NCBI RefSeq assembly: GCF_003355155.1 | Contig: NZ_CP031320.1 | Coordinates: forward strand, 542,359 to 606,358 | Length of the DNA: 64,000 bases | Source: Streptomyces armeniacus | GTDB lineage: Bacteria > Actinomycetota > Actinomycetes > Streptomycetales > Streptomycetaceae | Reading direction: 5' to 3' | In this document: piece by piece, positions 29,163 through 57,403 of the stretch | Layout of the letters: each line of letters opens with the position of its first letter | Numbering within the stretch: the first letter of the stretch is position 1 | Translations under genes and position numbers: made by a program | The notes under the pieces: model-generated | Databases searched by the model: none | Seen by the model: the letters and a program-made list of their open reading frames with translations, nothing else | What the model was told of the DNA's origin: nothing

Positions 29163-32100
29163 TCAGCTCCGATCGTCGAGGGAGTGCAGTTCGTCCGCCA
29201 CCACGACGCCGATCTCGGCGAGCGCTTCGGCACCGCCCATGTCGTTGTGCCGGAATCTGCTGGGCAGCACGCGGAAGTCACCTCCCACGTACGCGCTCCA
29301 GCCGGCCGCGGTCGACGTTTTGTCCGCTGTGGAGTCCTCGCCGGGGGGCTCCTGGCTGGCTTCCACGAAGAGGACATCGCCCGAGTAGCGGGCCGGCTGG
29401 TGGGCGGAGAGGAGCCGCACGTTGTTCTCGTAGACGGTCGCCATGCCGGTGAGGTCCTGTTCGCTGAGTTCGGCCAGCTGGCTGCCGTGCCGGTGCAGGA
29501 TCTCGAGGACCCGGCGTGCGGTGAGTTCGCTGTCTTCGGACTCCGGAGCGCGGATGCCCTCGTACTCCAGCAGCGCGTGATAGAGCCCCGTCCCCGCCCC
29601 GTGCGGTGCGTCCGGCGGCGGTGCGTCGACGGCGCCCGGGACGGCGTCCGCAGTGCCGTAGTAGCTGTCCAGCATGGCCAGGAAGGACACCGTCTGGCCC
29701 TGCCCCTCCAGCAGTACGGCCATCGCGTGGGCGATCACGCCGCCGAGGGACCAGCCGAGGAGCCGATAGGGGCCCTCGGGCCGTATGGCGCGGAGCTGTT
29801 CGACGTAGTCCGCGGCCATCTCCTCGACGCTGTCCGGCAGTTCGTCCCGGCCGTTGAGCCCTCGTGCCTGCAGTGCGTACAGCGGGACCTCGGCGTCGAG
29901 GTGGCGCACGAGCCCGGCGTACAGCCAGCCGATGCCGGTGCCGGGGTGCACGCAGAACAGCGGTGTACGGCTGCCGGACGAGCGCAGTGGCAGGAGCGGT
30001 TCGATGGCCGGGCGCTGCTCGCTCCGGCCGATGCGTTCGGCCAGTTCGGCGGGGGTGGGCGCGGCGAACAGGGTGGCCGTGTACAGCTCCACGCCGAGGA
30101 GGTGCTCGATGCGGCGGGCGAGGCGGGTGGCGAGAAGGGAGTGGCCGCCCAGGTCGAAGAAGTTGTCGTCGGCGCCGATCTCCTCCAGTCCGAGCATCTC
30201 GGCGAAGACGGCGCACAGTCGCGCTTCGGCCTCGTTCCGCGGTGCCCTTCCCGCCGTACGGCCCAGGGTGTCGGGGTCGGGCAGCGCGTTCTCGTCGATC
30301 TTCCCGTTCGGGGTACGCGGCAGCCGGGGCAGCAGGGTGATGGCCGAGGGCACGGCGTGGTCCGGCAGCACGGCACGGAGCTGCCGGAGAAGGGTTCCGG
30401 GAAGGCCCGCCACGGCGGCCGCGGACATCGGGTCGTGTACCAGGCTCCGCGCCGCCCCGTGAGCGGCGGCCGGCTCGTACAGGTCCCGGAACCGGCCGGT
30501 GCCGTACTCGGCGGCGGGGAGCAGCACCGCGTCGTAGATGCCGGGGGTCGTGGTGGGCACCGGCAGCGAGACGTAGCCCAGCTGCTCGGCGGTCCTGGCG
30601 AGCTGGTACGGGTCGATGGCGGACGGGGCGCGTTCCGGGGTGAGCCGCCCGAGGGTCGCTCCGGCAGCGGCGTCCTCCACGGCTCGCCACAGCGCGAGGT
30701 CGTCGGCGAGCCGGGCGTCCGGGACGCCCCGCAGCCGTACCGCCACCGGGGTGCCCGCCGCTCGCAGCAGGGCGGCCAGCTCCTCCGGGGTCCGGACGTC
30801 GCTGCCCCAGGCGAGGCTGCCGGCCGCGGTGACCGCGCGGGGTGCCGTGGTGTCCTTGTGGAGCACGGCGTCGTAGCGGTAGCGGGTGAGTTCGCTGTCC
30901 TGCCCTCCGGTCTTCAGGCGGAGGTCGCAGGGGACGTCGAGGGTGGCGAAGAAGTCCGGGTCGACGGCCAGCCGCTCGTCCACCAGGGTGCGGCGGCCGG
31001 CGGCGAGCCGGACCTGTGGCACCGCGGAGGACGGGGAGGCCGCGGCGCACTCGGCCGCCGTGTTCCGGCAGAGGTCCAGCCGGGGGTCGCGCAGGTCGCC
31101 GAGGAAGAGCGCGCCGCCGGGAGCCAGCAGTTCCAGCGCGCCGGTGAGCACTCTGCGCAGGTAGTCCTCCGAAGGGAAGTCCTGCACGACCGAGTTGAGG
31201 ATGACGGTGTCGAACTCGCCGGCCGCGAAGTCGTGGAAGTCGTGGGCCGGTTGCCGGCGTACCCGTATGTCGGCCCCGCCCGGCGGCGTGCGTTCCAGGT
31301 CCCGCCGGATGGCGTGGACCGCGGCCGAGGAGAGGTCCGTGGCCTGGTAGAGGTCGCAGTGCGGCGCGAGTTCGGCCAGGAGCAGTCCGTCACCGGCACC
31401 GATCTCCAGTACGCGGCGCGGCTGGAGTTCCCGCAGTCTTGCCACGGTCGCGTCCTGGTCCTGGTCCTGGTCCTGGTCCTGATCCTGATCCCGGTCCCGG
31501 TCCGCGCCGTCCCGGCTCTCGGCGGAGGCGAACACGAGGTCGTAGTACGCCCGCCACTCCTCCAGTTTCGCCTCCTCGAACGCCGCCAAGCCTGTTCCCT
31601 CCACCGGCTGCCGCGGCGAACCGGGGGCTTCGGGCAGGCAGGCCGGTTCTGGGCCGGGCACGACGTACGCGACGAGCCTGGTGATGCCGGAGCCATCGGC
31701 GTGGCCGCGTACGGCCGCCTCCGCTACGCCGTCCTGCCGCAGCAGTTCCGACTCGGTCTCTCCCGGTTCCAGACGGAACCCGCGCACCTTGAGCTGGCGG
31801 TCCGCCCGTCCGGCGAACTCCAGCTCGCCGTCCGGGTTCCAGCGGGCGAGGTCGCCCGTGCGGTACATCCTGGTCCCGTCTGCGGCGAACGGGTCCGGTA
31901 CGAAGCGGTGCGCGGTCAGCCCGGGTTGTCCCACGTAGCCGCGGGCGGTCGCCGGGCCCGCGAGGTAGGCCTCCCCGGTCTGTCCGGGGGCGACCGGACG
32001 CAGAGCGTCGTCCAGCAGGTGCACCGTGACGTTGGCGAGGGGCCGCCCGATCGGTGCCGCGGCCCCGGACAGGGGCGCCGTCGCGGTGCACATGACGGTG

Positions 32101-35100
32101 GCTTCGGTGGGCCCGTAGGAGTTGACCAGGGTGTGCCGGGCCGACCAGCGGCGCGCCAGTTCCGGCAGCAGGGTCTCGCCGATGACCCGTACGACCGTGG
32201 CGGCCGGCACCTCGTCCGGTTCGAGCACGGCCAGTGCCGAGGGGGTCAGGGTCAGTGCGGTGACCCGCTCCTGCCGCACGAGCTCCTCCAGCGCGCGGCC
32301 CGGCATCACGCGTTCCGCGGGCGCGAGCACCAGGGTGGCGCCGCAGGACAGGGTTTCCAGCACCTCGTACACGCCCACGTCGAAGGCAGGGGAGAGCAGG
32401 TGCGGCACCCTGCTCCCCTCGCCCAGCCCCATGGGGGAGGTCGTGGAGGCCAGCACGCCGGCCATTCCGGAGTGCTGTACGAGCACGCCCTTGGGGCGGC
32501 CGGTGCTACCCGAGGTGTAGATGGTGTACGCGACGTGGTCCGGCAGCAGCGGCGTGCCGCGGTCGGCGTCGGTGACGGCCGTCTCGGGGCGGGAGGCGAC
32601 GCGTTCGGCGGTCCGCTCCTCGTCGACGACCAGGAGGTCGGTACGTTCCCGCAGCAGCGGAAGGCCGGCGTGCTCGCTGTCGGTGAGGACGAGCCTCGGT
32701 CCGGCGTCCTCCAGGATCAGGCGGATCCGGTCCTCCGGGTAGCGCGGGTCCAGCGGTACGAAGGCGGCGCCGGCCTTGAGCACCCCGAGGAACGCGACGA
32801 CCTCCGCGACGGATCGCGGCAGCAGCACCGCGACGAGGTCCTCCGAGGCCACGCCCAGCGCGATCAGCTCGCGTGCCAGCTGGTTTACGCGTGCGTCGAG
32901 CCCTGCGTAGTCGATCTCTCGGGGCGGGCCGCCGGCCGTACGGAGCGCCACCGCCGCCGGGCTGCGCAGCGCCTGGGCCTCCAGCAGCGCCGGCAGGGTG
33001 GCCGGAGACACCCGCTCACGGCTGCTCCGGTATCCGGCCAGCCGCGCGTGCTCCTCCGTGTCGAGCAGGTCGAGCCGGGCGACCGAGAGGCCCGGGTCGG
33101 CGACGAACGTACGGATCAGCCGCAGCAGCCGGTCCATCAGCCGCTGGGCGCCCGGCTCGTCGAACACGTCCGTGCGGTACATCATGTCCAGCTCGATCCC
33201 GGACTGCTCGCCGCCCGGGAAGGCCAGCATCCCCAGCGGGTAGTGCCCGGCGGTCATGCCGCTCGCGCTGACGAGTTGGATGTCGCCGAGGTGCGCACGG
33301 GCTTCCGCGCCGGCCTGGGGGAAGTTCTCGAACGCGAAGGAGGTGTCGAAGAGTTCTCCCACCCCGGCGGCTCGCTGGATCTCCGCGAGTCCGACGTGCT
33401 GGTGCGGCAGCAGGGCGGCGCGCTCCCGCTGCACGCGTCGCAGCAGTTCGGCGAACGGTTCGTACGCGGAGAGCGTGACCCGCATCGGCAGCGTGTTGAT
33501 GAGCAGGCCGATGATGGACTCCACCGCGTCCAGGTCAGGTGAGCGGCCCGAGACGGTGACGCCGAAGAACACGTCCCACCGTCCGGTGTGCTCCGCCAGC
33601 ATCAGTGCCCAGCAGCACTGGAGCAGGGTGTTGACCGTGACGCCGTGGGCCGCGACCGCCGCGCTGACGGCAGCGGACTCCTCAAGTGTCAGGTGGTGGA
33701 CGATACGTGCCGGCCAGGGCGTGCTGAGGTGCTTGCCACGGGGCGCCACCAGCGTCGGCTCCACGGCGCCCGCCAGGCTGTCGCACCAGGCACGCAACGC
33801 GGCGTCCTTGTCCTGCCGTTGCAGCCAGCGCAGGTAGTCGGCGTACGGGGTGGGTTCGGGAAGCGAGTCGGGGTCCCCGTACAGCGCGAACAGCTCCGGC
33901 AGGAACAGGTGGTTGGACCAGCCGTCGAGCAGGATGTGGTGGGCCACCACCCGCAGTTGGAAGCTCTCCGGCCCCAGCCGCACCAGTGTGAAGCGGATCA
34001 GCGGAGGGTCTGCCGGATCGAACCGGATGGTCCTGCCCTCTGTGTCCAGCCGCGCGAGTTCGGCGTTCTGTTCCTCCGACGACAGGCCGGACAGGTCGAC
34101 TTCCCGGCACTCCAGGTCACGCCGGGGGTACACCTGCACGGAACGCCCCGAGGGGAGGACCACGAACCCGGCGCACAGATTGGGATGCCTCCGGCCGAGT
34201 TCACGTACCGCGTAGGACAGGCCGGCCGGGTCCAGGCGTCCGTTCAGCTTCAGGAAGAGCAGCATCACATAGGCGTCCTCGGTGTTCCGCTCGAACTGGC
34301 GGTGGAAGAGGAACCCCTCCTGCATCGGGGAAAGCGGCAGCACTGCCTTGAACGCGGGGTATTCGGACCTCAGCCACGAGCGTTCCGCGTCACTCAGCGG
34401 CGTCGGGAGCTGGTCGCCGGGCTGCTCGCGGCGGCGCACCGGCACGGCGGGCCCGCGTGGCTCGGCTGCTGTGCCGCCGGCGCGTTCCGCTCCGGCGTCC
34501 GCCCCCGGCAGGGGGGTCGCCACGGTGGCCAGCGCGAGCGGAGTGGGGTGCTCGAAGACGTCCTCGACCAGGATGCCGAGGCCCGCGGAGTGTGCCCTGC
34601 GGATGAGCTTGATGGAGTTGATGCTGTCGCCGCCGAGGGCGAAGAAGTTGTCCTCCGGGCCGACTTCGGCCAGCCCGAGCACTCCCGCGAAGATCCGACG
34701 GAGGGTGTCGGCCCTCTCCCGGCCCGGGCCCGCCGCGTCCGGCGTGGCCTCCGCGACGACCCGCGCCGGGCGGCGCGCCCACTCTTCCAGGGTCCGCCGG
34801 TCCGTCTTGCCGTTGGCGTCCTGCGGCAGCGCGTCCACGGTCTCGATCACCGTGGGCACCAGGGGTTCGGGCAGGTGGCGGCGCAACTGCGCACGGAGCT
34901 CCCCGGCGTCCGGCGACGTGCCTGCGGACGCCTCGATGTAGGCCGTCAGCCTGCGGTCCCCCGCGTTGTCCGGCACCGCGACGACAGCGGCCGCGGCGAC
35001 CTGCGGCAGGCTGGTGAGCCGTGCCTCGACCTCGCCGGGCTCCACGCGGATGCCCCGCACCTTGACCTGGTGATCGACGCGTCCGGCGAACTCCAGCGCG

Positions 35101-37646
35101 CCGTCGGGGTTCCAGCGCACGAGGTCGCCCGTGCGGTACATGCGCGCCCCGGGGCCGCCGAAGGGGTCCGCGACGAACCGCTCGGCGGTGAGGGCGAAGC
35201 GGTGTGCGTAGCCGCGTGCCAGGCACTCCCCCGCCAGGTACAGCTCGCCGTTACGGCCCGGCGGTACGGGGCGCAGCGCGGAGTCGAGGACGTGGCAGCG
35301 TACGTTCGCGATGGGCACGCCGATGGGCGGGTTCCCGGGCCGTTCCGCGTCGCAGCGCCACGAGGTGACGGTCACGGTCGCCTCGGTGGGGCCGTACGTG
35401 TTCGTGACCGCCTTCGCCGGGTCGCGGCGGAGGATCTCGCGCACCAGCTCGCCGGGCAGTGGCTCGCCGATGAAGAGGCAGTGCTCCGCCCTGTCGGCGA
35501 CCCACTCCGCCTCGGCGACGTGCCGGTAGAGCGAGGGCACGGTGTTGATGAGGCTGCCGGACCAGTCGGGCCGGTCCAGCAGGGAGACCAGATTGCGTAC
35601 GAAGTCGACGCTGCCGCCGCTCAGCAGCGGGATCAGGATCTCCTCCACGGACGGGTCGAAGCTGAGCGAGGTCGTGCACAGCACCCGCGAGAAGGCCGCC
35701 GCGCCGAACTCCTCGAGGGCCCAGTGAACGAGGTTGAGGACACTGCGGTGTGTCACGACGACGCCCTTGGGGCGGCCCGTCGATCCGGAGGTGTAGATGT
35801 GGTACGCGGCGTTGCCGCCGCCTGCGGCCACCGCGCCGGACGGCCCGGCCGCTTCCCGCGTCCAGGTGTCCTCGTCGTGCGGCCCGCCGGCAGGCTCCTG
35901 GCCGGTGATCTCGTCGAGCAGGATCGGCTCGGGGGCGTCCGGCGGCAGTTTCCCGGCCAGCTTCCTCGTGGTCAGCACCGTCATGGGGCGGGCGTCGCCG
36001 AAGAGGTGGGCGATGCGGCCGTCGGGGTATTCGGGGTCGACGGGCAGATAAGCGGCGCCCGACTTCAGCACCCCGATCATGCCGACTGCGATGGCCGTCG
36101 TACGGGGCAGCAGCAGCGCGACCACGTCCTCCGGCCCGGCGCCGCGCCGGGCCAGCAGCCCCGCGATCCGGCCGGCCCGCGCGTCCAGTTCGGCGTAGCT
36201 CAGCGCGCTGTCCGCGTCGCGTACGGCGATGTCTGCCGGGTGCTTGGCGACCTGTGCCTCGAAGGCGGCGGACAGGGTCTCCTCCGGGCCGCCGGCCGGG
36301 CGCTCGGTGCTGTTCCACCGCGCCAGAAGCCGAAGTTCCGCCTCGTTCGCGAGATCGAACCGGCCGACGGGCAGCTGTGGCCGGGCGGCCAGCTGCGTCA
36401 GCAGGCCGATCAGCCGGTGCGCTTCGGTCCTGTCGGCTCGTGGGCCGGCCAGATCCAGTGACCAGCCGTCCGCCGCCCGGTCGTCGAGACGCAGGCACAA
36501 GCCGGGGGTCTCGCCGTCCCAGGTGTGCTCGACGGTGGCCCAGGACGCGCCGAAGGGCACCCGGCCGGCGCTGTCGGCCGGCAGCACCACGGCGCCGTAG
36601 TCCTGTGCCGCGCCCCAGGGACAGTCCTCCTCCGGCACGTACGTGTGCCGGCGTGCCCGGCGCAGTGTCAGCCCGACCCGGCGCACCAGCTGAGCGAAGC
36701 TCGTACCGGGAGACACGCTGACGCGTACGGGCAGGACGCCGCGCCCGGAGCCGTAGCCGAGCAGCACCTCCCCCTCCCCGCTCAGCCGGTGCGCGTACAC
36801 GGCGAGTGCGGCGAGTACGACCGCTGCCGGGCCGGCGCCGCTCCGGCGCGCCAGCGCGGGGAGCGCCGCGCTCTCGTCGGGCACCGGCAGCCAGCCCTGG
36901 TTCCGCGGCGGCGGGCCGTGGCCCGCGCCGGGGTCCGTCGGCGTGCCGAGCTTCCGGTGGTCCGTCCACGGAGCGGGGGAACCGCTCAGTTGCTGCCGCC
37001 AGAAGTCGCGGTCTTCCGTGGTCGCGGCGTCCGCGCCGGGGCGCGCGCCTCCCCCGCCGGGTTCGGGGCCGGGTCCGGCCGGCGGCCAGGGTGCGGCGGT
37101 GGCGCCCGGGGAATCGTCCGGGGTGGCGGTGAGCTGCCCGTAGAGGTCGCCGGCACGGCGCAGCAGCGCGGTCAGGGCCGGAAGACCGTCACCGTCCGGC
37201 TGACCGGGCTGTGCGGTGGCCGCCGACCGCTGCCGGCAGAGCTGCTGATACCAGCCGATCCGGCCGTCGGCGCAACGCAGCAGCACGTGCCGCTGGCCCG
37301 CCGGGCCGCCTGCCGCGCCGGCCAGTTCACGCGCCGCCCATGCCTCGGGGTCGGCGTCGCCTGTCTCCAGCTCCTCCACCGTGGGCGCGGCAGCGCCGGA
37401 GCGAGGGAGCGACTGCTCGCGCAGGGCCCGGTTCACGGCCTCCCGCAGCGGCTCGAGGCGTACGGGTCCGCTGAAGCGGGCGTACTGCGCCACAACGCGG
37501 TCGCCCGCCGGCTCGCCGCTGCCGGTGCCTCCGCTGCCGGGGCGGCCGCCGGTGTCCGCGCTGGGCGTCCGGCCGGCCGCGGCCACCGCCGTACGCTGGT
37601 CGTTCCCGTGGCCGTGGTCCAGTCGGCCTGCGGCGTGAGTGGTCAT
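29163..37646 (-). CDS. NRPS: C*-A-T-C-A(N-MT)-T-TE
   Basis: 2827 aa from ATG 37644-37646 with GGAGGAAACCCG upstream; the start overlaps the previous stop (ATGA). Domains by residue: degenerate condensation domain without HHxxxDG (about 40-440); A1 (460-950; [22 protein letters not shown]10 NGKTD); T1 ([10 protein letters not shown] near 1005); C2 with intact HHILLDGWS (1105-1545); A2 (1555-2450; [21 protein letters not shown]10 TPNGKID); an N-methyltransferase inserted after A8 (2015-2265; [24 protein letters not shown]); T2 (DLGGHSLLA near 2500); thioesterase (GWSLGGV near 2633, with MLDSYYG and RHNDMGG). It adds two amino acids, the second N-methylated, and releases the product. My reading of the A1 pocket starts D-P-E, which I do not recognise. 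Confidence 0.95.
31451..31502. repeat. Hexanucleotide microsatellite encoding Asp-Gln repeats in the N-MT region
   Basis: About eight units of TGGTCC and close variants (TGATCC, CGGTCC). On the coding strand they give a run of six Asp-Gln pairs preceded by Asp-Arg, at about residue 2050 of the NRPS just before the SAM-binding motif. Any change by whole units keeps the frame. Confidence 0.9.
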
Positions 37647-40600
37647 CGGGTTTCCTCCGTGAGTGCCGCCGCGAGGGTGTCCGCCCCTGGTACGGGGGCC
37701 TCCGGCTGCAGATCGACGCGTTCCGCCAGCACGTCGTGCACTGGCAGGCCGGGCTCGTCGAGCAGCCCGTCCAGCAGTTCCCGCGTGGCCGTGAGCAGGG
37801 TGTTCGCTGTCGTGTGCGTGAACAGTGCGGAGGCGTAGTCGAGGCGGAGTGTCAGGGCGCCGTCCTCCTGTCGGTCCCAGGAGAACGCCAGCTCCGTCGC
37901 GTACGCGCCCGGCACCGACTCGCCGTCCCACGCCCCCGTGCAGCACACCCGCGGCAAGGGCCCGGCCGTGGTGCCGACTTGCCCGCCGGCTCCGGGCGCG
38001 GCGCCGCGCCCGGCCAGCCGCGTGAGAAGCGTGCCAAGGGTCGGATCGTCCTGGAAAGCGGCGCGCGCCGGCCCGCCGGGGGCTGCGACCGCGACCTCGT
38101 CCTGGCCGGTTACCCAGGACAGCAGCACCAGCCAGCAGGCCAGCAGTACGGTGGCCTGCTGGCCGCCGTGTCCGGCCGCGGTCAGCCGGTCGTACGTCCG
38201 CGGCTCCAGCGGCAGTGTCACCACGCGGTCGAGGACGACGGGTTGCTCCGGCCGCGGCCGGTCCGCCGGAACCAGCAGCTCCGGATGGTCCGGTGGCCGG
38301 ACGCTCGTACCGTCGCTCGCCGGCGGCTCCGCGGGGGCCGGCCCGGCCGGGTGCGGCGGGCCGTCAAGCAGCCGCGTCAGGGGACGCGAGCCGCTGCCGG
38401 CGGCCGCGATCCCGCCGAGCAGCCAGGTGTAGACGGCGGTCATCTCGGCGGCCGTGTCCTCGGTGAACAGGTCGGTGCTGTACTCCAGGCAGGCCGAGAT
38501 CCCGTCCTCGCCCTCCCGGTCTCCGGTGACCAGCGTCAGATCGAACTTCGCGGTGCCGGCCGGCAGGCCGCCGAAGAGGTTCTCCACCGCGTTCCGGTCG
38601 TCGAAACTGCCGAGCACGTGGCCGTCCACCCGCTGCAGCGGCGGCAGGTCCTGGTGCACGAACATCACGTCGAAGAGTGGCGCACGGCTCGGGTCCCGCT
38701 CTGTGACGAGGGCCTTCACCACGCGGTCGAAGGGGACGTTCTGGTTGTCCAGACCGGTGAGCACGCGTTCCCGGATGTGCGACACGAAGTCGTCCAGTGT
38801 CGGCTCCCCGGCCAGGCTGGCGCGCAGGGCAACGGTGCTGTTGAAGAAGCCGACGAGGCCCTGGAGTTCGGGGCGCGTACGGCCGGTTGTCGGGGTGCCG
38901 ACGACCAGGTCGCGCTGTCCGCTGTAGCGGGCGAGCAGCAGATACAGCGCGGCCAGGAGCACCACGAAGACCGAGGTGGACTGGCGCGCGGCCGCCTGCC
39001 TCAGCTCCACTGCCAGCGTGTCCGGGATGTCGAAGCGCAGCAGGTTGCCCCGGTAGCTCTTGCGGGCGGGCCTGGGGTGATCGGTGGGGAGGCGCAGTGG
39101 CTCCACTCCGGTCAACTCGGTGCGCCAGTAGGCCAGTTCACTGTCGAGCGCGGAGGTGGCGAGCAGGTCCCGCTGCCACTGTGCGTAGTCCCGGAACTGT
39201 AGGGGGAGCGGGTCGAGCCTTGGCGGCCGGCCCTCGCGGCGGGCGTCGTAGAGCTCCGGGAGCTCCCGCTCGAAGATCCGGGGAGAGGCACCGTCACTGA
39301 CCGCGTGATGCATGGTGACCTGTACCAGGAGTTCACGCGGAGCCAGCCGCACCACGAGCACCCGCAGCAGATCGTCCGCGGCCAGGTCGAACCGGTGGTC
39401 CGCGGCCTCGCGAATCAGCTCGCGGGCCGCGGGCAGCGGATCGTCGTGGCCGGAGAGGTCCTCGTACCGGAAGAAGTTCGTCAGTCCCGGACTGACGCGC
39501 AGCTCGGGAGCGCCGTCCACCTCGACGAAGCGCGACCGCAGCACCTCGTGGCGACCGGCAAGGTCCTCCCACATGCCACGCACGGCGTCGATGTCCAGGT
39601 CCGCACGAATGTGGTTGACGGACGGGAGGTTGTAGAGCGTGGTGCCCTCGTCGAGCTGGTGGTGGAACCACATCCGCTCCTGCCCGTAGGACAGCACCAG
39701 CTTCGGCTGCGGGCGTACCGGCGGCAGGTCCCCGGTGCCGGATGCGACGTGTGCGCTGATGTGCTTGGCGAAGTCCTCGACCCGTGAGTGGTCGTAGGTG
39801 TCGATGAGCTTCGGCCGGAAGTTGTAGCGTCCCTCCACCCGGTCGATGAGCTGCATGCCGATGATCGAGTTCCAGCCCAGGTCCAGATAGTCCGCGGCCG
39901 GCTCGACACGGCTCTCGGTGCGAAGCAGTTCCTCCAGCGTGCGGCAGAGCCACGCGGTGACATCCTCGACGGACTCGACCGACTCGACGGATACGCCGGA
40001 CTCAACGGACCCGCCTGACTGGCCGGTGCCAATGCCGGTGCCGGTGCCGACGCTGTCGCGTTCCGTCGCGGTGCCGTGGGAAGGCGGACCTCCCGGCAGA
40101 ACATCACCCGTGGTGGGCGCGGGCTGCCGCGTCTCCGGCGCCGCGGGCGGCGGAGCGTGGCTCTCCGGTTCAAGCCAGCAGTGCGTCCCCCGCACCGGGT
40201 GCCCGGGGAGCCGGAGCCGGAGCGGCTCGGCCGGAGGTGGCGAAACGGTGTGCCAGTCCACGTTCACCCCCAGTCCGTAGAGGACACAGAGGAGTTCCGG
40301 GAACCCGCCCGTACGCTCCGAAGCCGAGACGACCGCCCGCGTCGTGGACCCTTCGGCCGCCGCCACGTGACGGCGTGCCACCGTGCCGAGCGTGCTGTCC
40401 GGAGCCAGCTCCACGAACACCACCGGCCCGCCGTGCGCGAGTTCGCGTACGGACCTCTCAGCGTCCGCGTGGCCCTGCTCGGAGGCGTCGGGCTGCGAGG
40501 GCACTTCCTCAGCCGTCTTCCCTGCCGGGGCCGGCAGTTGAGCGGCCACCTTCCGGGACTCGCCCGTGCTGACGACGCCGGCGATCCGGACACCACAGCG

Positions 40601-42313
40601 GCGCAGCTCCTCGTACGCGGCCCGCTGTCGGGACAGCACCTCGGCGGTGTCCACCGCGGCGGAGCCGTCCCGCGAAGACGCCGGTGTCCGGTCGGCCTGC
40701 GGCACGGCGCCCGGCGGCACGGCGTCCGGCGACAGCAGCAGCACGACCTTCGGGGAACTCCGGCGGCCGGACGGCCGGTCCGGGGCCTCCCCCAGCCAGG
40801 TGGCCTGCGCGGCGAGCTGGGTGGCCAGCTCCCGGGTGTCCCGGGCCGTTACGGCCACCCGGTGTTCGTACGCCGCGCGCCCGTGGTTGAGCGTGAAGGC
40901 CACGTCGGCGAGATCCTCGGCGCCCTCCCGCAGGGCGCCGGCCAGGTCCGCGCACAGCTGCCGCAGAGCCGCGTGCGTACGCGCGGACACCGCGACCACC
41001 CGCGGCAGCCCGTCTCCGTGCGCGGGCGCCCGCCGTGGCGGCTCCGGCGGCTGCTGGACGACACAGTGCGCGTTGATGCCTCCCAGGCTGAACGAACTCA
41101 CGCCGGCCAGCCGGCCGGCACCCGCCCACGGCCGCGCGGCGGTGAGCACTTCCAGGCCGAGTTCGCCCAGATCGACGCCGCCGGTGGGCTTGCGGTAGTT
41201 CACGGTGGGATACAGCTCGCCGTGCCGCACGCTGAGTACGGCCCGGAGCAGCCCGGCCATCCCGGCAGCGGCGTCCAGGTGCCCGATGTTCGCCTTGACC
41301 GAGCCGATGGGCAGCGGCTCGGGGCGCGTGCCGAAGACGCTCGCCAGGCCCTCCAGTTCCACTGCGTCGCCCAGCGGCGTGCCCGAGCCGTGTCCCTCGA
41401 GGTACCCCGCCAGTACGGGGTCGAGACCCGCGGCCGCCCACGCCTTGGCCACCACTCTCGCCTGGGCACGCGCGCTCGGGGCGCTCATCGTGGCGCTCGC
41501 ACGTCCGCTGTGCAGGACCGCGCTGCCGCGTATGACCGCGTGCACCGGCGCGCCGTCGGCGAGTGCCCGGTCCACGGTCGTCAGCAGCAGCGCGGCGCCG
41601 CCCTCACCGCCGATCGCGCCGTCGGCGTCCGCGTCGTAGCTGCGGTACCGCACGTCACTGGCCGCTGTCTCCCGCAGGCCGTCCAGCGCCGAGGCCGGCA
41701 TGCCGCCGGCCTTGACGCTGACCCCGCCGGCCACCGCGTACTCCGCGTCCCCCACCAGGAGTTCACGGCAGGCGTGGTGTACGGCGACCAGCGAGCTGTT
41801 GCACCCGGAGTCCACCGCGTAGCACGGGCCGGTGAGCCCCAGCACGTGCGCGATACGCGACGGCAGGCCGAACGGCGCGTTGCCCAGTGCGCTGAGTGCC
41901 CCGGGTTCCCGCGCGGCCGCGTCGTAGGTCGACGCCGAGGAGCTGAAGACGACCGCGGTGTCCGCGCCGCGCAGTCCGGCCGACGCGTACCCGGCGTCCT
42001 CGAACGCCTGGTGCGCGAGGAGCAGCGCGAGCCGCTGCTGCGGGTCCATCACCGCCGCCTCGCGGCGCGAGAGCCCGAACAGCGTGGAGTCGAAGGTGTG
42101 GATGTCGTCCAGGTGCCCCATCGGCAGGTAATTCGCCGACGGGTCGAGGCCGGTGGCCGCGGCCCGTTCCGCGGGCATGGGGCGCACGCTGTCGCGTCCG
42201 GTCCGCATGTTGTGGCGGAACGCCTCGATGGTGTCCGCCTCCGGGAACCGGACGGCGATGCCGACGATGGCTATGTCCCTCTCGCCGGGCTCCGGCACGT
42301 GGCTGCTGTTCAC
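37643..42313 (-). CDS. Hybrid PKS-NRPS: KS-(AT remnant)-T-C-(partial C)
   Basis: 1556 aa from GTG 42311-42313, overlapping the upstream stop (GTGA), with GGGGGAG upstream. KS (about 13-430) has Cys171 (DSGCNSSL, normally TACSS), His308 (EGHGSGT) and His345 (KANIGHLD). About 430-720 corresponds to an acyltransferase position, but no GHSxG or substrate motif is present; only flanking linker-like pieces remain ([28 protein letters not shown]). A Ser/Val/Glu repeat linker leads to a carrier domain ([11 protein letters not shown] near 815). C (about 870-1300) has an intact HHAVSDGAS. The last 200 residues look like the C-terminal lobe of another C domain. It should extend an aminoacyl chain by one extender unit, then condense it with the next amino acid. 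Confidence 0.92.
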
Positions 42314-44295
42314 TGCTGCTCCCCCGGTGTTCCTGCGTCGTCGCCCGGCTCGGGCGTCCCTGTGGCGGCCCCCCGGGCAGGCGGGGCCGCCGGTTTCACG
42401 GCGGCCACCAGTTCGGCTTGGCTCTCCACCGTGTCCAGGTCGAAGAGCTGGCCCACGCGCACGGCACCCGGCCACTCCCGCTGGAGGCACAGATGCAGCT
42501 CGACCACCCGCCGGGAGTCCCCGCCCACGGTGAAAAAGCTGTCGTCCGCGGCGAAATCGTCGTGTCCGAGCACCCTGCTCCACAGCCTCGCGACAGCGCC
42601 CTGTGGCTCCGGCCAGCCGTGCCAGCCGTCCGGGCGGGCTTCGGGCGGGGGCTCCGCGGTGGCCGGGTCCGTACCGCAGACGTCCCCGGCCGCGGCGGTG
42701 TCCGTGCCCAGCAGCGCGCGCAGGGCGTCCTCGTCGGTCTTGCCGCTCGGTCCCAGCGGCATGCTGTCGACCAGGTGGAAGTTCCCCGGCACCGCCTGTC
42801 CCACCAGGCGCCCGGTGCAGAACTCCACCAGCTCCCGGGCCGTCGGCAGGATGCCGCCCGGCTCCGCGGGGGACCAGAACGCCACCAGCCGGGTGTCGCC
42901 GTGCCGATCGGGCACTCCCAGCACGGTGGCCTGGCCGACCGCCGGGTGGTCCTCCAGCGCCGCTTCGACGCCGTGCCGCTCCACCCGTACGCCCCGCACC
43001 TTGAGCTGGCCGTCGGCCCGGCCACGGAAGACGATCTCACCGCGTTCGTCGAGCACGACGAGATCTCCCGTGCGGTACATCCGCGCGCCCCTCCGGCGCG
43101 TGAACGGGTCGGCGACGAAATGCCGCGCGGTGTCACCGGGGCGAGCGGCGTAGCCCAGCGCGATCTGCCCGCCGCCGAGGTACAACTCGCCCAGCCGGCC
43201 CGGCTCCAGCGGCCGCAGCCGTTCGTCCAGCACGTACGCCGACTGGCCGCCCAGGGAACGGCCGATCGGCACGGCCTCCCGGTACGTGCCGGCCACGGGA
43301 TGCGCGAGCACGGTGATGGTCGCCTCCGTCGGACCGTACTCGTTGCGCAGCTGAGTGCGCGGCAGCACGGCACGGTGCTGGTCGAGCAGGCCGAGTGGGA
43401 ACACCTCGCCGGCGAGGATGACTTCCCTCAGGTGCGCGTCGGCACCCGCGAGGTGCGGCAGCATCAATCGGTAGTACGAGGGCGGCCCGCCCGCGTACAC
43501 CACCCGCCAGTGCAGCACCAGCGCGGCGGACTCGGCCGCGTCGGGCAGCTGCCGGTGGTCCGGCAGGACCGCGGTGCCGCCGGTGCACAGCGCGTGGAAG
43601 AGGAGCAGCAGCGAGCCGTCCCAACTGAGCCGGCAGGGTGAGAAGGTCACGCACCCCGGCTTCTCGGGGCGTGCCTCGATGACCCGGGCGAGATTGTCCC
43701 GGGTCACCACGACTGCCTTGGGTTCGCCCGTGGAACCAGCGGTGGTGATCACGTACGCCGGTGCCGCGCCGGATGTTTCAGCCGGAGCCGGTACGGCCTC
43801 GTACGCATCCGCGACATCCGTGCGCGCCCCCGGCCCCGCCGCGGGCTCCGTGGAGCACCGGTTTGCCAGCAGCGCCAGGGGACGGGGCGCGTCCTCGCGC
43901 AGGGCATTGAGTTCCGGTGGCGTGTACGGCTCGCCGGCGGCGTCCGTACCGCCGTGTACGACAGCGCCGCAGTCCACGTCGCGCACCAACGCCCGGAGGC
44001 GTTCTGGCGGTTGGCCGGGCTCGGCCACGCACCACGCGGCCCCCAGCCAGAGCGCCGCGACCATGCCGACGACGGTCTGCGCACTCTGCCGCTGGTACAG
44101 GACCACCGTCTGGCCACTGCGCACCCCTGCCGCGCTCAGCCGCCCGGCCAGGCCGGCGCTCGCGAGGACGAACTCGCGGTAGGTCAGCGTGGTCTCGCCG
44201 ACGACCAGGGCGACACCCGTCGGGTCCTGGGCGGCGTGCCGGCGGATCCGGGCCAGCACGTCCTGCGGAGTACGAGAGGCCGGCACCGCGTTCAC
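42310..44295 (-). CDS. NRPS loading/first module: adenylation plus carrier (A-T)
   Basis: 661 aa from GTG 44293-44295, overlapping the upstream stop (GTGA). The adenylation domain spans about 1-500 with ITTAGSTGEPKAVVV (A3), RNEYGPTEATITV (A5), MYRTGDLVV (A7), GEIVFRGRADGQLKVRGVRVE (A8) and PLGPSGKTDEDAL (A10). The carrier domain has DSFFTVGGDSRRVVEL with the phosphopantetheine Ser. It activates the amino acid that the downstream ketosynthase should extend. The pocket residues I read (starting D-G-L) do not match a code I recognise. No MbtH-like partner gene lies in the window. Confidence 0.93.
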   Translation of the reverse strand: MNAVPASRTPQDVLARIRRHAAQDPTGVALVVGETTLTYREFVLASAGLAGRLSAAGVRSGQTVVLYQRQSAQTVVGMVAALWLGAAWCVAEPGQPPERLRALVRDVDCGAVVHGGTDAAGEPYTPPELNALREDAPRPLALLANRCSTEPAAGPGARTDVADAYEAVPAPAETSGAAPAYVITTAGSTGEPKAVVVTRDNLARVIEARPEKPGCVTFSPCRLSWDGSLLLLFHALCTGGTAVLPDHRQLPDAAESAALVLHWRVVYAGGPPSYYRLMLPHLAGADAHLREVILAGEVFPLGLLDQHRAVLPRTQLRNEYGPTEATITVLAHPVAGTYREAVPIGRSLGGQSAYVLDERLRPLEPGRLGELYLGGGQIALGYAARPGDTARHFVADPFTRRRGARMYRTGDLVVLDERGEIVFRGRADGQLKVRGVRVERHGVEAALEDHPAVGQATVLGVPDRHGDTRLVAFWSPAEPGGILPTARELVEFCTGRLVGQAVPGNFHLVDSMPLGPSGKTDEDALRALLGTDTAAAGDVCGTDPATAEPPPEARPDGWHGWPEPQGAVARLWSRVLGHDDFAADDSFFTVGGDSRRVVELHLCLQREWPGAVRVGQLFDLDTVESQAELVAAVKPAAPPARGAATGTPEPGDDAGTPGEQQ

Positions 44296-45224
44296 CTCGC
44301 ACCGTAGCTGTGGAAGCCCCGGCCGCTCTTGCGCCCGTGGTGTCCCGCCTCGACGAGTTCCCGCAGCAGTTCGCAGGGTTCGTAGCGGCTGTCGCCGGTG
44401 GTCTCCCGCAGCACCACCAGGGTGTCGAGCACCGTGTCCAGGCCGATCAGGTCGGCGGTGCGCAGCGGGCCCATCGCGTGTCCGAAACAGTCGGTGAAGA
44501 TCAGGTCGACCGTCTCGGCGTCGGCGGTGCCCGACTGCACGCGTTCGGCCGCGTCGTTGACCATGGGCATCAGTACCCGGTTGGAGACGAAGCCCGGACC
44601 GTCGTTCACCACGTGCGGCCGCTTGCCCAGTCCGCGCAGCAGCTCCTGGACGGTCTCCAGCGTCTCGGCGCTGGTCTGCGGGCCACGGACCACCTCGACC
44701 GCGTCCTTCAGCGGTGCGGGGTTCATGAAGTGCGTGGCGAGGACGCGGTCCGGCCGCCCGGTGAACCCGGCGAGGGTGCTGACCGGAATGGCGGAGGTGC
44801 AGGAGGCAAGCACGGTCCGGGCCGCGCAGGCGCCGTCCAGCCCGGTCAGGATCTCCTTCTTGACCGCGATGCTCTCCGGCCCGCACTCGACCACGCACTC
44901 CGCCTGGGCCAGCCGGTTCACCTCGTGCGTCCAGTCGATGCGTGCCGCGATGTCGTCCATCGGCTCGGGGCTGGCGGGCTTGCGCAGCAGCCGCGCGGCA
45001 CGGAGACCGTTTCGCAGCAGCCGCCGGCCCGCGGCTGCCGCTTCCACCGAGGGGTCCAGGAGCACGACATGGTGGCCGGCGGTGGCGAAGCTCTGGGCAA
45101 CACCCACGCCCATGGTGCCCGCGCCGACCACACCGATCACGCCACGGCTCCCCCCGCACGGCGGTGCTCCCGGGTCCGCGCTCCGCCCGGCCGCCCGTCC
45201 GGCCTCTTCCCGTGCGCCGTTCAT
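44292..45224 (-). CDS. 3-hydroxyacyl-CoA dehydrogenase, FkbK-like (hydroxymalonyl-ACP pathway)
   Basis: 310 aa from ATG 45222-45224 with GGGGAG six bases upstream; overlaps both neighbours by four bases. Rossmann motif GVIGVVGAGTMGVGVAQSFATAGHHVVLLD, then ASCTSAIPVSTLAGFTGRPDRVLATHFMNPAP and VNDGPGFVSNRVLMPMVNDA, the hydroxybutyryl-CoA dehydrogenase pattern. In methoxymalonyl- and hydroxymalonyl-ACP pathways this member oxidises the glyceryl-ACP C3 hydroxyl. The neighbouring FkbH, FkbI and FkbJ homologues make this role far more likely than fatty acid metabolism. Confidence 0.93.
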   Translation of the reverse strand: MNGAREEAGRAAGRSADPGAPPCGGSRGVIGVVGAGTMGVGVAQSFATAGHHVVLLDPSVEAAAAGRRLLRNGLRAARLLRKPASPEPMDDIAARIDWTHEVNRLAQAECVVECGPESIAVKKEILTGLDGACAARTVLASCTSAIPVSTLAGFTGRPDRVLATHFMNPAPLKDAVEVVRGPQTSAETLETVQELLRGLGKRPHVVNDGPGFVSNRVLMPMVNDAAERVQSGTADAETVDLIFTDCFGHAMGPLRTADLIGLDTVLDTLVVLRETTGDSRYEPCELLRELVEAGHHGRKSGRGFHSYGAR

Positions 45225-46300
45225 GTGCCGCTCCCCGCTGCTGTGGACGTACTGCCGGTGATCCGGACGTGAGACGGCAGGGAGGGCGGTTGTCCGTCCG
45301 GTGGGAAGCCGAGCAGCAGCCGGCCTTCGGACTGCTCCAGCACCTCGAAGCCGGCGAACCGCAGGTTGACCAGCATTACCCGGTTGACCTCGGTGGGCAC
45401 GAACTCCGCCTCCGGGCGCATCCCCTCGGCCAGTGTCCGCCGGACGATGTGCCCGATCAGCGCCGGGCCGATCCCCCGGGACATCACCCGGCAGGACAGC
45501 AGCAGCAGCCGGAGCACACACCGTCCGCCGTCGCGTTCGACGACGGCCAGACCGATGACCCCGTAGCTCCCGAACCGGTCCGTGAGACCGGCCACCAGTA
45601 CCTCGTACCGCGGCGAGTCACACATCTCGCGCAGCTCCGCCATGCTGTAGCTGCGGCCCGTGGTGTTGAGCTGGTGGGTGCGCACCGTCAGTTCGTGTGC
45701 GCGGGCGAGGTCGTCCGGCGTCGCCGCGCGGACGGTCAGTTCCAGCTCGAGTGAGGCGAGGAACTGGGCCGGAGTGCCGTCGTACGCCTCCCGCGCCTGG
45801 TTCCGTGAGGCCTCCGCCCGGTACAGCCGCCGCCTGCCGCGGGCCTCCTGGGTCACCTCGCCGGCCGGGAACTCCTCCCTGGCCGGCAGTTCGGCCAGCT
45901 CCTCGGCGGCGTAGCAGCGTACCCGCGGGTGAGCCGACGCCACCTCGGCACGCTCCACCGGGTCGTTGTCGACGAACGCGAGCGTGTCGATGCCGATGCC
46001 GAGGGCCTCGCTGATCCGCCGTACGGACTCGGACTTGGCGCCCCAGCCCACTTCGAGCACGGTGAACAGCTCGGCCAGGCCGAGCTTGGTCAGATGGGCC
46101 GTGGCCGTCGCGTGGTCACCACGGCTCGCCACCGCGTGCAGCACGCCCCGTTCGTCCAGGGCGTGCAGCGTCGAGACGGCCGCCTCGGACGGGCGCGGGT
46201 CGTCGCCCTCGAGCACGGTGCCGCGCCACAGGGTGTCGTCCAGGTCCCACACGAGGCACTTGACGGGGGTGACCGCTTCGGTCCGCTCAGTGGCCGTCAT
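45221..46300 (-). CDS. FkbH-like HAD-superfamily glyceryl-ACP synthase
   Basis: 359 aa, the usual FkbH length. The N-terminal HAD domain shows VKCLVWDLDDTLWRGTV (catalytic DLDDT), VASRGDHATA and LAFVDNDPVERAEV; the C-terminal half is GNAT-like (SYGVIGLAVVERDGGRCVLRLLLLSCRVMSRGIG). FkbH proteins load a three-carbon acid from 1,3-bisphosphoglycerate onto an ACP as D-glyceryl-ACP. The start ATG 46298-46300 overlaps the acyl-CoA dehydrogenase stop. Confidence 0.94.
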   Translation of the reverse strand: MTATERTEAVTPVKCLVWDLDDTLWRGTVLEGDDPRPSEAAVSTLHALDERGVLHAVASRGDHATATAHLTKLGLAELFTVLEVGWGAKSESVRRISEALGIGIDTLAFVDNDPVERAEVASAHPRVRCYAAEELAELPAREEFPAGEVTQEARGRRRLYRAEASRNQAREAYDGTPAQFLASLELELTVRAATPDDLARAHELTVRTHQLNTTGRSYSMAELREMCDSPRYEVLVAGLTDRFGSYGVIGLAVVERDGGRCVLRLLLLSCRVMSRGIGPALIGHIVRRTLAEGMRPEAEFVPTEVNRVMLVNLRFAGFEVLEQSEGRLLLGFPPDGQPPSLPSHVRITGSTSTAAGSGT

Positions 46301-47538
46301 CGGGACTCCACCGGGCCGGGCCGTACGGGCTGTGCCGTGCTGCCGGCGGGAGGCCGGTGTTCGCGTAACAGACGTTCGGCTATGTGGAGTTCGGCCACGT
46401 GCTGCGCTCCTTCGATGATCTCCATCACCTTCCCGTCCCGGAAAAACCGCCCGGCCCTGCTGTCGGGTTCGCAGCCGGCAGAGCCGAGGAGTTGCACGGC
46501 GTCACGGCTGACGGAGGCCGCCGCTTCGGCCCCGGCGTACTTGGCGACGATCGTCTCCGTCACCCCCGCGGCGCCGATGGTCCCTGCCGCCCGCTGCCGG
46601 GCCGCCCGTACGGCGAGCTCCCTGGCTCCCGCCGTCTGCACGGCGGAGCGCGCCAACTGGGCCCGCACCAGCTGGTGTTCGCTCAGCTGCGTGCCCGCCT
46701 GGGTACGCGTGCTGACGTGCTCCACGGCATCTGCGAGGCAGGCCTCCGCCATGCCGACGCATCCCCAGGCGACGGTGTACCGTCCGTGATCCAGCGCGAT
46801 CGCCGCGACGTGGGACAGTCCGGCTCCGGGCGGAGCGACGAGGTTGCTCCGCGGGACCGACACGGCGTCGAACTCCACGTGTGCGATCCGTGCGGCCCGC
46901 ATGCCCAGCTGGTCGCTGACGGGCTGCCGGCGCACGCCCTCCCGGTCCCCCTCGACGAGCACCGCGACCGGGCGGCCGCGTGACTGCCCCAGGACGAGGA
47001 ACACATCGGCGCACTCCCCGAAGGTGATCCAGCGCTTACGGCCCGTCACCACCACACACGGGCCGCCCTCGTCCGCCGCCTGCTCTCCGGCATCGCCCTC
47101 CTCCGGGATCCGCACCTCGGTACGCACCCCCGCGAGCGCGCTGCCCGCCTCCGCCTCGGTGGCGGCGAAAGCGGCCGTCAATTCCCCGGAAGCGAACCGG
47201 GGCAGCCACCGGGCACGCTGCCCGGCCGTTCCCCAGCGCCGCACCGCGGCGGCCACCATGCCCTGCACGGTGACAAGCCCGCGCAGCGCGCTGCACACGC
47301 CGCCCAAGTGCGCACACGCCTCACCGACTTCCTCCCAGCCGGCGCCCTGGCCGCCGTACTCCTGAGGCAGGTCGGCGGCGAGCAGTCCGGCCTCGGCCGC
47401 CTGCTTGCGCACCGCGTCCGGAAGGCCGCCCCACCGGTCCCACTCGGCCGCCTGCCCGCGCGCCTCGGCAGCGAGCTGTCCGGCCGCTCGGACCAGGGGC
47501 GAGTCGTGGACAGCGGTGGGCCCCGGCACCACCGGCAT
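46297..47538 (-). CDS. Acyl-CoA dehydrogenase, FkbI-like (hydroxymalonyl-ACP pathway)
   Basis: 413 aa from ATG 47536-47538 (GTG 47541 is equally possible); both overlap the ACP stop. Flavoprotein motifs: GEACAHLGGVCSALRGLVTVQG, FAATEAEAGSALAGV, VVVTGRKRWITFGECAD and, near the end, AVQLLGSAGCEPDSRAGRFFRDGKVMEIIEGA, the last including the usual catalytic-Glu region. In FkbI/AsmB-type pathways this enzyme oxidises the intermediate on the ACP to hydroxymalonyl-ACP. The codon at 46366-46368 (ERLLREH near the C-terminus) is TTA, which puts translation of this operon gene under possible bldA control. Confidence 0.93.
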   Translation of the reverse strand: MPVVPGPTAVHDSPLVRAAGQLAAEARGQAAEWDRWGGLPDAVRKQAAEAGLLAADLPQEYGGQGAGWEEVGEACAHLGGVCSALRGLVTVQGMVAAAVRRWGTAGQRARWLPRFASGELTAAFAATEAEAGSALAGVRTEVRIPEEGDAGEQAADEGGPCVVVTGRKRWITFGECADVFLVLGQSRGRPVAVLVEGDREGVRRQPVSDQLGMRAARIAHVEFDAVSVPRSNLVAPPGAGLSHVAAIALDHGRYTVAWGCVGMAEACLADAVEHVSTRTQAGTQLSEHQLVRAQLARSAVQTAGARELAVRAARQRAAGTIGAAGVTETIVAKYAGAEAAASVSRDAVQLLGSAGCEPDSRAGRFFRDGKVMEIIEGAQHVAELHIAERLLREHRPPAGSTAQPVRPGPVESR

Positions 47539-47789
47539 CACTGCTCCACCACCGGCCGCACACCGGTCTTCCGCTCCACGAAACGCGTGATTCGGGCCGC
47601 CGAACGGAAACTGTCCAGGTCCAGGTCCTCGACTTCCACGGTGATCCGGAACCGCTCTTCGACGAAGGCGACGAGTTCCAGGGCGAAGAGCGAGTCGGCG
47701 AGCCCGAGCGCGAAGTAGTCGTCCTCCGGGTCGACCGCCTGACGCAGTGCCGCACTCAGAAAGTCGGTGATCTCCTCGGTGATGTTCAT
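47538..47789 (-). CDS. Free acyl carrier protein, FkbJ-like
   Basis: 83 aa from ATG 47787-47789, overlapping the KASIII-like stop. The phosphopantetheine site is FALGLADSLFALELVAFVEERF, with the attachment Ser in ADSLF. Acidic, four-helix pattern. It carries the glyceryl and then hydroxymalonyl group made by the FkbH, FkbI and FkbK homologues encoded directly downstream. Confidence 0.94.
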   Translation of the reverse strand: MNITEEITDFLSAALRQAVDPEDDYFALGLADSLFALELVAFVEERFRITVEVEDLDLDSFRSAARITRFVERKTGVRPVVEQ

Positions 47790-48814
47790 GGGGTCGCAGG
47801 CTCCTGAGGTCCTATCTCGACCAGCAGCAGGCTCCAGGCCGCCACCGGGCTGACATTGATGAGCACGACCCGGTCTCCCGGGCCCAGAGCACCTCGCTCC
47901 ATGGCGGTGCGGAGGTTCAGGAAGACGTCGTTGGGCCCGAGGTGGCCGTTCTCGCGAAGGTTCTCCCGGCACACCGGAAGCAGGGAAAGGCCAAGCGATT
48001 CCTCGGTGAAGGTCTGACTGCCCACGGAGAGGTTCTGGCTGACGAAGCCGCGTACGTCGTCCTGCGCCAGCCCGTTGCGTTCCAGCAGGCGGCGCAGGAG
48101 CGCGGCCAGCCGGTTGCGGGTCTCGATGGCGAGGCGGAAGGAGTAGCCGGGCGGATCCGTGCAGTCCTCGCGCCACAGCTCGCTTCGCACATCGCGATAG
48201 TCGACATGGAAGAGGTCCCAGTACGCGCCGTTCGTCTCCTGCACCGCGTCGAGCAGTCGCACCGGGCCGTCCCGGCCGATCAGGAGCGCCTGCCCGCTGT
48301 CCCCGTTCACGGTCACCGGATGCCGGTAACGGGCTTGGGGGGAAACGGGCTTGCTGCCGTGGGCGACCAGCACCTCGTCCAGCTCCGGATCGGCCGCCAG
48401 CAGCCCGCGCGCCGTCAGCAGCGCGGGGGTGACGGAGACACACCCCAGTCCGCCCACGGAGAACGTCAGGGCATGTTCGGCTTTGAGCAGGTGCTGCAGG
48501 TGGGTCGCCGCCGAACTGAGCAGCGTCCCGGGGACGCGCTGTTCGACGACGATCAGCGCGCCCAGCTCACCCGGATCCCTGCCGGCCTGCTCGAGCAGCC
48601 GCCCCGCCGCGCGTTCCGCCAGCGCGGTCGCGTCCATCCCGTCGTCGGCCCGTACGGAATCGATGCCCAGCGCGAGGCAGGCCCGCCGCTCGTCGTCGTC
48701 CAGCCGGTCCAGTTCGGGCAGTTCGGCCACGGGCAGCGTGGATTCCGGCAGATACGAAACCACCGCCCGCAGAGCGAACGGAGCGGCACCATCCCTACGA
48801 GCTGTATCCGGCAC
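47786..48814 (-). CDS. KASIII-like ketosynthase/acyltransferase
   Basis: 342 aa from GTG 48812-48814 behind AGGAGGCCGC; first gene of the biosynthetic operon. The thiolase-type nucleophile is Cys125 in FSVGGLGCVSVTPAL. The FabH catalytic His region (normally PHQAN) reads FVSQNLSVG, without His, and the Asn region (GNTSAAS) reads NGHLGPNDVFLN, with His291. The end (RVVLINVSPVAAWSLLLVEI) is typical of the family. Such departures occur in KASIII relatives that move acyl groups instead of making C-C bonds (for example ChlB3 and CerJ types). Here it may shift the hydroxymalonyl unit or prime the line; both are inference. Confidence 0.87.
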   Translation of the reverse strand: MPDTARRDGAAPFALRAVVSYLPESTLPVAELPELDRLDDDERRACLALGIDSVRADDGMDATALAERAAGRLLEQAGRDPGELGALIVVEQRVPGTLLSSAATHLQHLLKAEHALTFSVGGLGCVSVTPALLTARGLLAADPELDEVLVAHGSKPVSPQARYRHPVTVNGDSGQALLIGRDGPVRLLDAVQETNGAYWDLFHVDYRDVRSELWREDCTDPPGYSFRLAIETRNRLAALLRRLLERNGLAQDDVRGFVSQNLSVGSQTFTEESLGLSLLPVCRENLRENGHLGPNDVFLNLRTAMERGALGPGDRVVLINVSPVAAWSLLLVEIGPQEPATP

Positions 48815-52500: not shown

Positions 52501-52892
52501 GAGACCTCGGTCCCCTCGTCGCGGAGTTCGTTCAGCGTCCGTTCGGCGACGCGGAACGACTCCAGCGCGGCGGGCACTCCGCAGTACACCGCGGTCTGCA
52601 GCAGCGCCTCCTGGATCTCCGCCTCCGTGCAGCCGTTGCGCACCGCTCCCCTGACGTGCACCGCCAGTTCGTGCATCCGGTTGAGGGCGGTGAGCATCGC
52701 CAGGTTGAGGAGGCTGCGGGTCCTGCGGTCGAGGCCCTCGCGGGTCCAGACCTCGCCCCAGCAGTACTCGGTGACGAGCTCCTGTACGGGTCGGCTGAAG
52801 TCGGTCACCTTGGCGAGCGACCGTTCGACGTGGTCGGCGCCCAGCACTTCCCTGCGTGCCGCGAGACCCGCGTCGAAGCGTTGCGTGTCCAT
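52497..52892 (-). CDS. Carboxymuconolactone decarboxylase family protein, PcaC-like
   Basis: 131 aa from ATG 52890-52892. The whole length matches the PcaC pattern: WGEVWTREGLDRRTRSLLNLAMLTAL, HELAVHVRGAVRNGCTEAEIQEALLQTAVYCGVPAALESFR. Family members in aromatic catabolism decarboxylate gamma-carboxymuconolactone; other substrates are likely here because no protocatechuate genes are nearby. 20 bases separate it from the cupin gene. Confidence 0.92.
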   Translation of the reverse strand: MDTQRFDAGLAARREVLGADHVERSLAKVTDFSRPVQELVTEYCWGEVWTREGLDRRTRSLLNLAMLTALNRMHELAVHVRGAVRNGCTEAEIQEALLQTAVYCGVPAALESFRVAERTLNELRDEGTEVS

Positions 52893-52912
52893 GATCGTGC
52901 TCCGTTCGTCGT

Positions 52913-57336: not shown

Positions 57337-57376
57337 CGCCGTCACCTCCTGCCGATCAACCCTGATCACTAGGACT

Positions 57377-57391: not shown

Positions 57392-57403
57392 TTGTGCATC
57401 GTT

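Follow-up and report, generated by a model that had tools for sequence, protein, structure and literature searches.

How does a modular assembly line obtain its extender unit when the acyltransferase (AT) domain of its ketosynthase (KS) module is apparently dead? The question is raised by an eight-gene peptide-polyketide operon on the minus strand of a 64,000-nucleotide stretch of the Streptomyces armeniacus genome (8.08 Mb, a single contig; the whole stretch is called the window here). An earlier reading of this DNA, the original prediction, described a route to hydroxymalonyl bound to an acyl carrier protein (ACP) and the domains of the line, both of which are supported by the sequence, and did not remark on the ketosynthase-III-like (KSIII-like) product of gene 1 or on the missing AT. 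We give a probability of about 0.6 to the reading that gene 1 encodes a thiolase-fold trans-acyltransferase, which would move hydroxymalonyl from the free ACP of gene 2 to the KS module of gene 7.

Gene 7 carries a KS module without a working in-line (cis) AT, as trans-AT synthases do. In a 24-row alignment, the KS catalytic residues are intact in every row and the GHSxG motif of the AT stretch is replaced (by eye). A profile built from 38 cis-ATs recovers from that stretch weak pieces only, usually one, in 22 of the 24 rows (scores of 0.6-9.8 bits, falling around profile positions 67-145 or 217-299), and from the window's own row only a C-terminal piece at 9.3 bits. The model of gene 7 aligns with KS-AT didomains across about 650-670 residues, and its AT is apparently a shrunken, dead relic. 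An AT-profile search of the window at E <= 1 returned no match and no FabD-type serine AT in the cluster, and none of the 47 AT matches in the genome lies inside the window. The zwittermicin-type motif for hydroxymalonyl-ACP, GYSxG, is absent from gene 7, and neither it nor GHSxG occurs within 420 residues past 87 of the 91 KS domains beside gene-1 relatives (duplicates included).

Gene 1 has the thiolase (KSIII) fold, shared by the transferases ChlB3, CerJ and DpsC; CerJ is among its Foldseek matches and is not among the 50 rows of a further comparison listing. Its Cys125, His291 and Asp296, a Cys nucleophile and a His-x4-Asp pair, correspond to Cys113/His296/Asp301 of ChlB3, a triad also found in CerJ (PMC9573744). 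A search found 282 matches, and the three residues are kept in all 120 of those listed (119 relatives and gene 1 itself). They are also present in 80, 79 and 79 of 80 named loci, one locus being gapped there and one of the two patterns that picked these loci including Cys125. The FabH-type Cys-His-Asn triad is absent from gene 1, where the FabH His position is Gln260 and the Asn position is His291; among the 120 matches listed, the former is Gln in 88 and His in 32, and the latter is His. By fold and triad, gene 1 is best read as a KSIII-fold acyltransferase of the ChlB3/CerJ type with a predicted transfer function. Tetronate clusters carry FkbH, an ACP and a KSIII, which there joins glyceryl-ACP to a beta-keto chain. 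Beside other FkbH loci, KSIII matches reach 25-64 bits with the gene-1 profile, no tetronate enzyme being compared by name.

The association of gene 1 with AT loss can be followed from three anchors. The first is gene 1 itself, with homologues at E <= 1e-20 in 32 of 392 same-genus genomes. Among the named loci (the best 80 of the 119 relatives), 67 show a KS and 13 do not, and 64 of the 67 carry AT-less KS domains only, as judged by motif, with just 279 and 233 residues of frame past the KS in L074 and L086. By AT profile, 4 of 123 gene-1 loci (95 distinct gene-1 sequences) hold an AT. The second anchor is the relic: a profile built from gene-1-linked loci and run on 384 same-genus genomes, with six candidates scored per genome, gave 22 strong matches at 228-370 bits, then a gap down to 128, and all 22 lie on the same strand as a gene-1 homologue, 3.4-9.7 kb away. 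The third is FkbH, with 97 loci spread over 72 of the 150 genomes searched, all 97 of which were taken. Of these, 29 have FkbH and an FkbI-like match above 250 bits; once eight with no KS in the stretch and L216, whose KS is short and discrete, are set aside, 20 can be judged. AT-less KS domains occur in 7 of 8 cassettes with gene 1 versus 1 of 12 without it (Fisher p 0.0008), and 11 of those 12 were judged to have a normal AT. L207 counts as AT-bearing in this test: the motif search marked it AT-less, but an AT with GSSQG is seen by eye. Together, the three anchors support the reading that gene 1 tracks AT loss.

The unit to be loaded is predicted from genes 2 to 5. The stand-alone carrier of gene 2 scores 24 bits against a cut-off of 20.8 (scanned inside a longer frame), the closest solved structure to gene 3 is FkbI itself (1r2j, E 2.7e-56), and gene 4 matches TIGR01686 at 250.4 bits (curated cut-off 146.65). 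These family matches support the assignment, already made in the original prediction, of FkbH, FkbI, FkbJ and FkbK homologues that would yield hydroxymalonyl-ACP. The absence of an O-methyltransferase that it had reported is borne out as well, there being no separate one among the eight genes, where the sole methyltransferase found sits inside an A domain; an O-methyltransferase added to such a cassette would give methoxymalonyl instead. The substrate that FkbH proteins load and dephosphorylate is 1,3-bisphosphoglycerate (PMC8949500), and published schemes for zwittermicin (PMC4207774) and butyrolactol (PMC5355916) lead from such a gene set to hydroxymalonyl-ACP. Elsewhere in the genome, another FkbH gene, which differs in type (C1:1560626-1561609, L193), has no FkbI-like or dehydrogenase match within the 20 kb taken.

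On our preferred reading, FkbH would put glyceryl from 1,3-bisphosphoglycerate on the gene-2 ACP, and the products of genes 5 and 3 would oxidise it to hydroxymalonyl-ACP, which would be used once. The A-T module of gene 6 would present an amino acid to the gene 7 KS. Because the AT of gene 7 has apparently withered, gene 1 would take over extender loading: Cys125, activated by His291-Asp296, would accept hydroxymalonyl from its predicted donor, the gene-2 ACP, and pass it to its predicted acceptor, the gene 7 T domain, and the KS would form an alpha-hydroxy-beta-keto unit. Gene 8 would add two residues, the last one N-methylated, and its thioesterase (TE) would release the product, possibly with cyclisation. 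The predicted backbone is aminoacyl - C(=O)-CH(OH)-C(=O) - residue - N-methyl residue. Where this unit had first been given as beta-keto or reduced, the reduced form now looks unlikely because no ketoreductase was found in scans of the operon.

KSIII-fold acyltransferases are already known, and so are enzymes that transfer ACP-bound extender units (ZmaF and ZmaA-AT; ClbG, which serves ClbK). ZmaF is free-standing; ClbG belongs to the FabD-type serine ATs, and the AT of ClbK itself is degenerate. The zwittermicin A pathway of Bacillus cereus, also a peptide-polyketide pathway, has an ACP-bound hydroxymalonyl extender and a like supply scheme, but uses serine ATs with GYSxG (ZmaA-AT, ZmaF) for ACP-bound units (PMC4207774), whereas the in-line AT of this operon is apparently dead and the searches located none in its vicinity. 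In the colibactin pathway, the separate ClbG moves a pathway-made unit to ClbK, but that unit is aminomalonyl (PMC10924459). Butyrolactol A, from Streptomyces, likewise an actinomycete, has the same four supply genes without an O-methyltransferase, but it is built by a multimodular polyketide synthase (PKS), with no nonribosomal peptide synthetase (NRPS) among the genes listed and no protein annotated as KSIII in its gene table (PMC5355916); this lack of an annotated KSIII beside the same supply genes supports gene 1 as a stand-in for the AT. ChlB3, CerJ and DpsC share the fold of gene 1, and the first two its triad, but they are only about 20% identical to it, and the roles described for this group in the text consulted are to transfer 6-methylsalicylyl to an ACP and malonyl to a sugar (PMC9573744). 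Foxicin, from a Streptomyces PKS-NRPS cluster with FkbH, was dropped as a matching system: its FkbH is fused, ATs are present in its modules, and the text consulted shows no FkbI/FkbK set (PMC5318452). Alpiniamide, with a KSIII beside a trans-AT PKS, was set aside, as its description names a trans-AT and reads that KSIII as a starter enzyme. The open-access literature surveyed (PubMed Central, top-listed papers) yielded no KSIII-like enzyme loading an extender unit, and a KSIII-fold extender loader of a modular line would be new to it.

Several observations weigh against gene 1 as the loader. Cis-ATs do occur beside gene-1 homologues: of the three loci left over by motif, L126 and L134 have an AT and L111 has both types, its AT-bearing KS lying on the opposite strand, and two of the four loci positive by profile are, judged by length, the same contig (L126 and L171). 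The relic anchor is not independent: the loci behind its profile are themselves linked to gene 1, and 7 of the 22 strong matches are rows of that profile by sequence, 8 with the window included and about 11 once contig-length matches are counted. The relic alone does not require gene 1, since seven relic modules of lower score (97-128 bits) show no gene 1 and no FkbH in the 20 kb taken, and such gene-1-free, AT-dead modules must be loaded some other way. In these seven (L234-L240), the GHSxG motif of the dead AT reads GHGxG, GEGxG or GDGxG instead. In the FkbH set, L208 has the cassette and an AT-less KS without gene 1, the top gene-1-profile match in its genome reaching 45 bits, and the Fisher p overstates independence because the loci fall into a few related families. 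The other counts, too, come from related loci and are not independent. The butyrolactol table includes a 408-residue hypothetical protein and an 868-residue ketoacyl-synthase-like protein (PMC5355916). Finally, direct use of hydroxymalonyl-ACP by the KS is conceivable.

This last point underlies the alternative that survives best, though we consider it unlikely: the KS takes hydroxymalonyl for condensation straight from the free ACP of gene 2, after which gene 1 shifts the finished beta-keto chain to the in-line T domain. The co-occurrence of gene 1 with AT-less modules is consistent with this as well, the operon has both a free ACP and an in-line T domain, and ChlB3 is known to shuttle an acyl group between carrier proteins (PMC9573744), but the KS would have to work with an extender carried by a free ACP, for which no precedent was met in the literature surveyed. 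Considerably less probable is loading of the gene 7 T domain by a housekeeping or unlinked FabD-type AT, with gene 1 hydroxymalonylating a peptide amine or hydroxyl as CerJ malonylates a sugar hydroxyl (PMC9573744); the AT matches elsewhere in the genome, one of them in a 325-residue frame at 4147981, would allow this, but gene 1's tracking of AT loss would go unexplained. Least probable, by a little, is a true KSIII that condenses the amino acyl group with hydroxymalonyl while the type I KS is structural or otherwise used: the fold, the His at the second position in 32 of the 120 matches listed and a like His in DpsC (by residue spacing read from PMC9573744) are set against the Gln and His that gene 1 has at the FabH His and Asn positions and the catalytic residues that the type I KS keeps in 24 of 24 rows.

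Sequence comparison places the operon, on the best reading, as one member of a widespread, broad, mainly actinobacterial family. Its gene order is not unique: 2 of the 80 loci, those of Streptomyces sp. CB01580 (L064) and S. albidoflavus NRRL B-1271 (L075), share it as far as 10 kb of flank shows. The earlier remark that no characterised pathway with this order was recognised holds for the open-access literature searched. Longer relatives have an extra C domain, with gene 5 moved or lying past the end of the flank (for example L058-L063 and L065-L068), and in others an NRPS-KS line has gene 1 downstream (such as L071-L073, L076, L077, L079, L081, L082, L084 and L093-L096). In a more distant set (L125, L130, L174), the AT-less KS module ends in a thioester-reductase-like domain (by eye), which suggests hydroxylated peptide aldehydes or alcohols as products; this module adjoins a supply set and a distant gene-1 homologue. 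S. rimosus (G392) has three strong gene-1 homologues, two in AT-less clusters (L070, L115) and one on contig C52, and the single FkbH found in its genome (E <= 1e-30) lies on that third contig beside the third homologue. Three homologues with one FkbH suggest that one supply set may serve several lines, the two AT-less lines seemingly depending on the third cluster's extender, and the idea of gene 1 as a mere marker of FkbH was rejected on the same loci. More generally, for gene-1 loci without FkbH in the flank, FkbH was found elsewhere in 17 of 17 genomes searched (that of L093 left out); L102 has it about 11 kb past the flank on the same chromosome, and coordinates suggest likewise for several others. 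A Crocinitomicaceae (Bacteroidota) bin has FkbH, FkbI-like, ACP and dehydrogenase genes, a gene-1 homologue (36% identity) and an AT-less KS together (L116:4400-10400), reflecting either cross-phylum transfer or a binning error.

The coordinates are given in the table below. The eight genes run from 48814 to 29163 without internal stops, in the order KSIII-like protein, ACP, FkbI-like dehydrogenase, FkbH, 3-hydroxyacyl-CoA dehydrogenase, A-T, KS-T-C and C*-A-T-C-A(MT)-T-TE. All seven junctions are 4-base overlaps (ATGA or GTGA), sharpening the 1-4 bases first reported, and AGGAGG ends four bases 5' of the GTG start of gene 1. Domain and motif matches uphold the line as first drawn: DSGC, EGHGSGT and KANIGH of the KS, HHxxxDG in two C domains, LEIGAGDG at the S-adenosylmethionine site and GWSLGG in the TE are intact, and the C* domain opening gene 8 has lost HHxxxDG. 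Gene 7 has an additional truncated C-like stretch at its 3' end (37643-38400, read by eye), and the degenerate stretch at the start of gene 8 lies at 36300-37590. A C domain may have decayed or been split over this border, because several relatives have a second C-domain match around it. The A-domain codes read by motif, DGLGIAEITK (gene 6), DPENLITVTK and DVYLRISVMK, are not known to match a described code; those of A2 and A3 vary among relatives, and the attempt to identify the product from them was abandoned. No ketoreductase, MbtH, transporter or regulator turned up when the eight genes were scanned (with Pfam for the three synthetase genes), in keeping with the earlier statement on the last three. 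The flanks look unrelated to the operon. Downstream are DsbD/thioredoxin genes (26180-27783); upstream, a catabolic-looking minus-strand set (50768-57399) with AhpD/carboxymuconolactone-decarboxylase-like proteins, two 3-hydroxyisobutyrate-dehydrogenase-like genes, an SDR, a lactamase-fold hydrolase and an MFS gene (56008) faces an IclR gene (57502), the MFS and IclR genes being outside the operon and part of another gene set.

Table. Genes, domains and putative catalytic residues of the operon (window coordinates).
Feature	Position	Strand	Remark
Gene 1, KSIII-fold protein, proposed trans-acyltransferase	47786..48814	-	
Gene 1 Cys125	48440-48442	-	
Gene 1 His291	47942-47944	-	
Gene 1 Asp296	47927-47929	-	
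Gene 2, stand-alone ACP, FkbJ-like, proposed hydroxymalonyl carrier	47538..47789	-	PP-binding match
Gene 3, acyl-CoA dehydrogenase, FkbI-like	46297..47541	-	best solved relative 1r2j
Gene 4, FkbH-type glyceryl transferase/phosphatase	45221..46300	-	TIGR01686
Gene 5, 3-hydroxyacyl-CoA dehydrogenase, FkbK-like	44292..45224	-	clear hydroxyacyl dehydrogenase match
Gene 6, A-T initiation module	42310..44295	-	
Gene 7, KS - AT relic - T - C, then truncated C-like tail	37643..42313	-	
Gene 7 KS domain	41006..42280	-	approximate borders; intact Cys171/His308/Lys340/His345
Gene 7 AT relic (apparent)	40166..40768	-	approximate borders; shrunken, GHSxG lost
Gene 7 T domain	39728..39961	-	attachment Ser816
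Gene 7 C domain	38405..39700	-	intact HHAVSDG
Gene 8, C* - A - T - C - A(MT) - T - TE	29163..37646	-	C* motif lost
Gene 8 methyltransferase core within last A domain	31107..31409	-	LEIGAGDG
Gene 8 thioesterase core	29520..29963	-	GWSLGG

The exchange of loader seems to recur in related bacteria. We see an even chance that Actinobacteria, together with the one Bacteroidota bin, have a whole class of assembly lines whose extender-loading AT has given way to a structurally unrelated, cysteine-based KSIII-fold enzyme, of a kind known from fatty-acid synthesis, and the old AT persists as a shrunken scaffold, which would be a second, independent form of trans-acyl loading. If so, an AT function in modular PKSs would have been taken over by a non-homologous enzyme, the annotation of AT-less modules would change, and a new tool would be at hand to place hydroxylated units in peptides. 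The signature of a gene-1 homologue with an AT-less KS would then mark many clusters, as the number of distinct gene-1 sequences indicates, with one common step.

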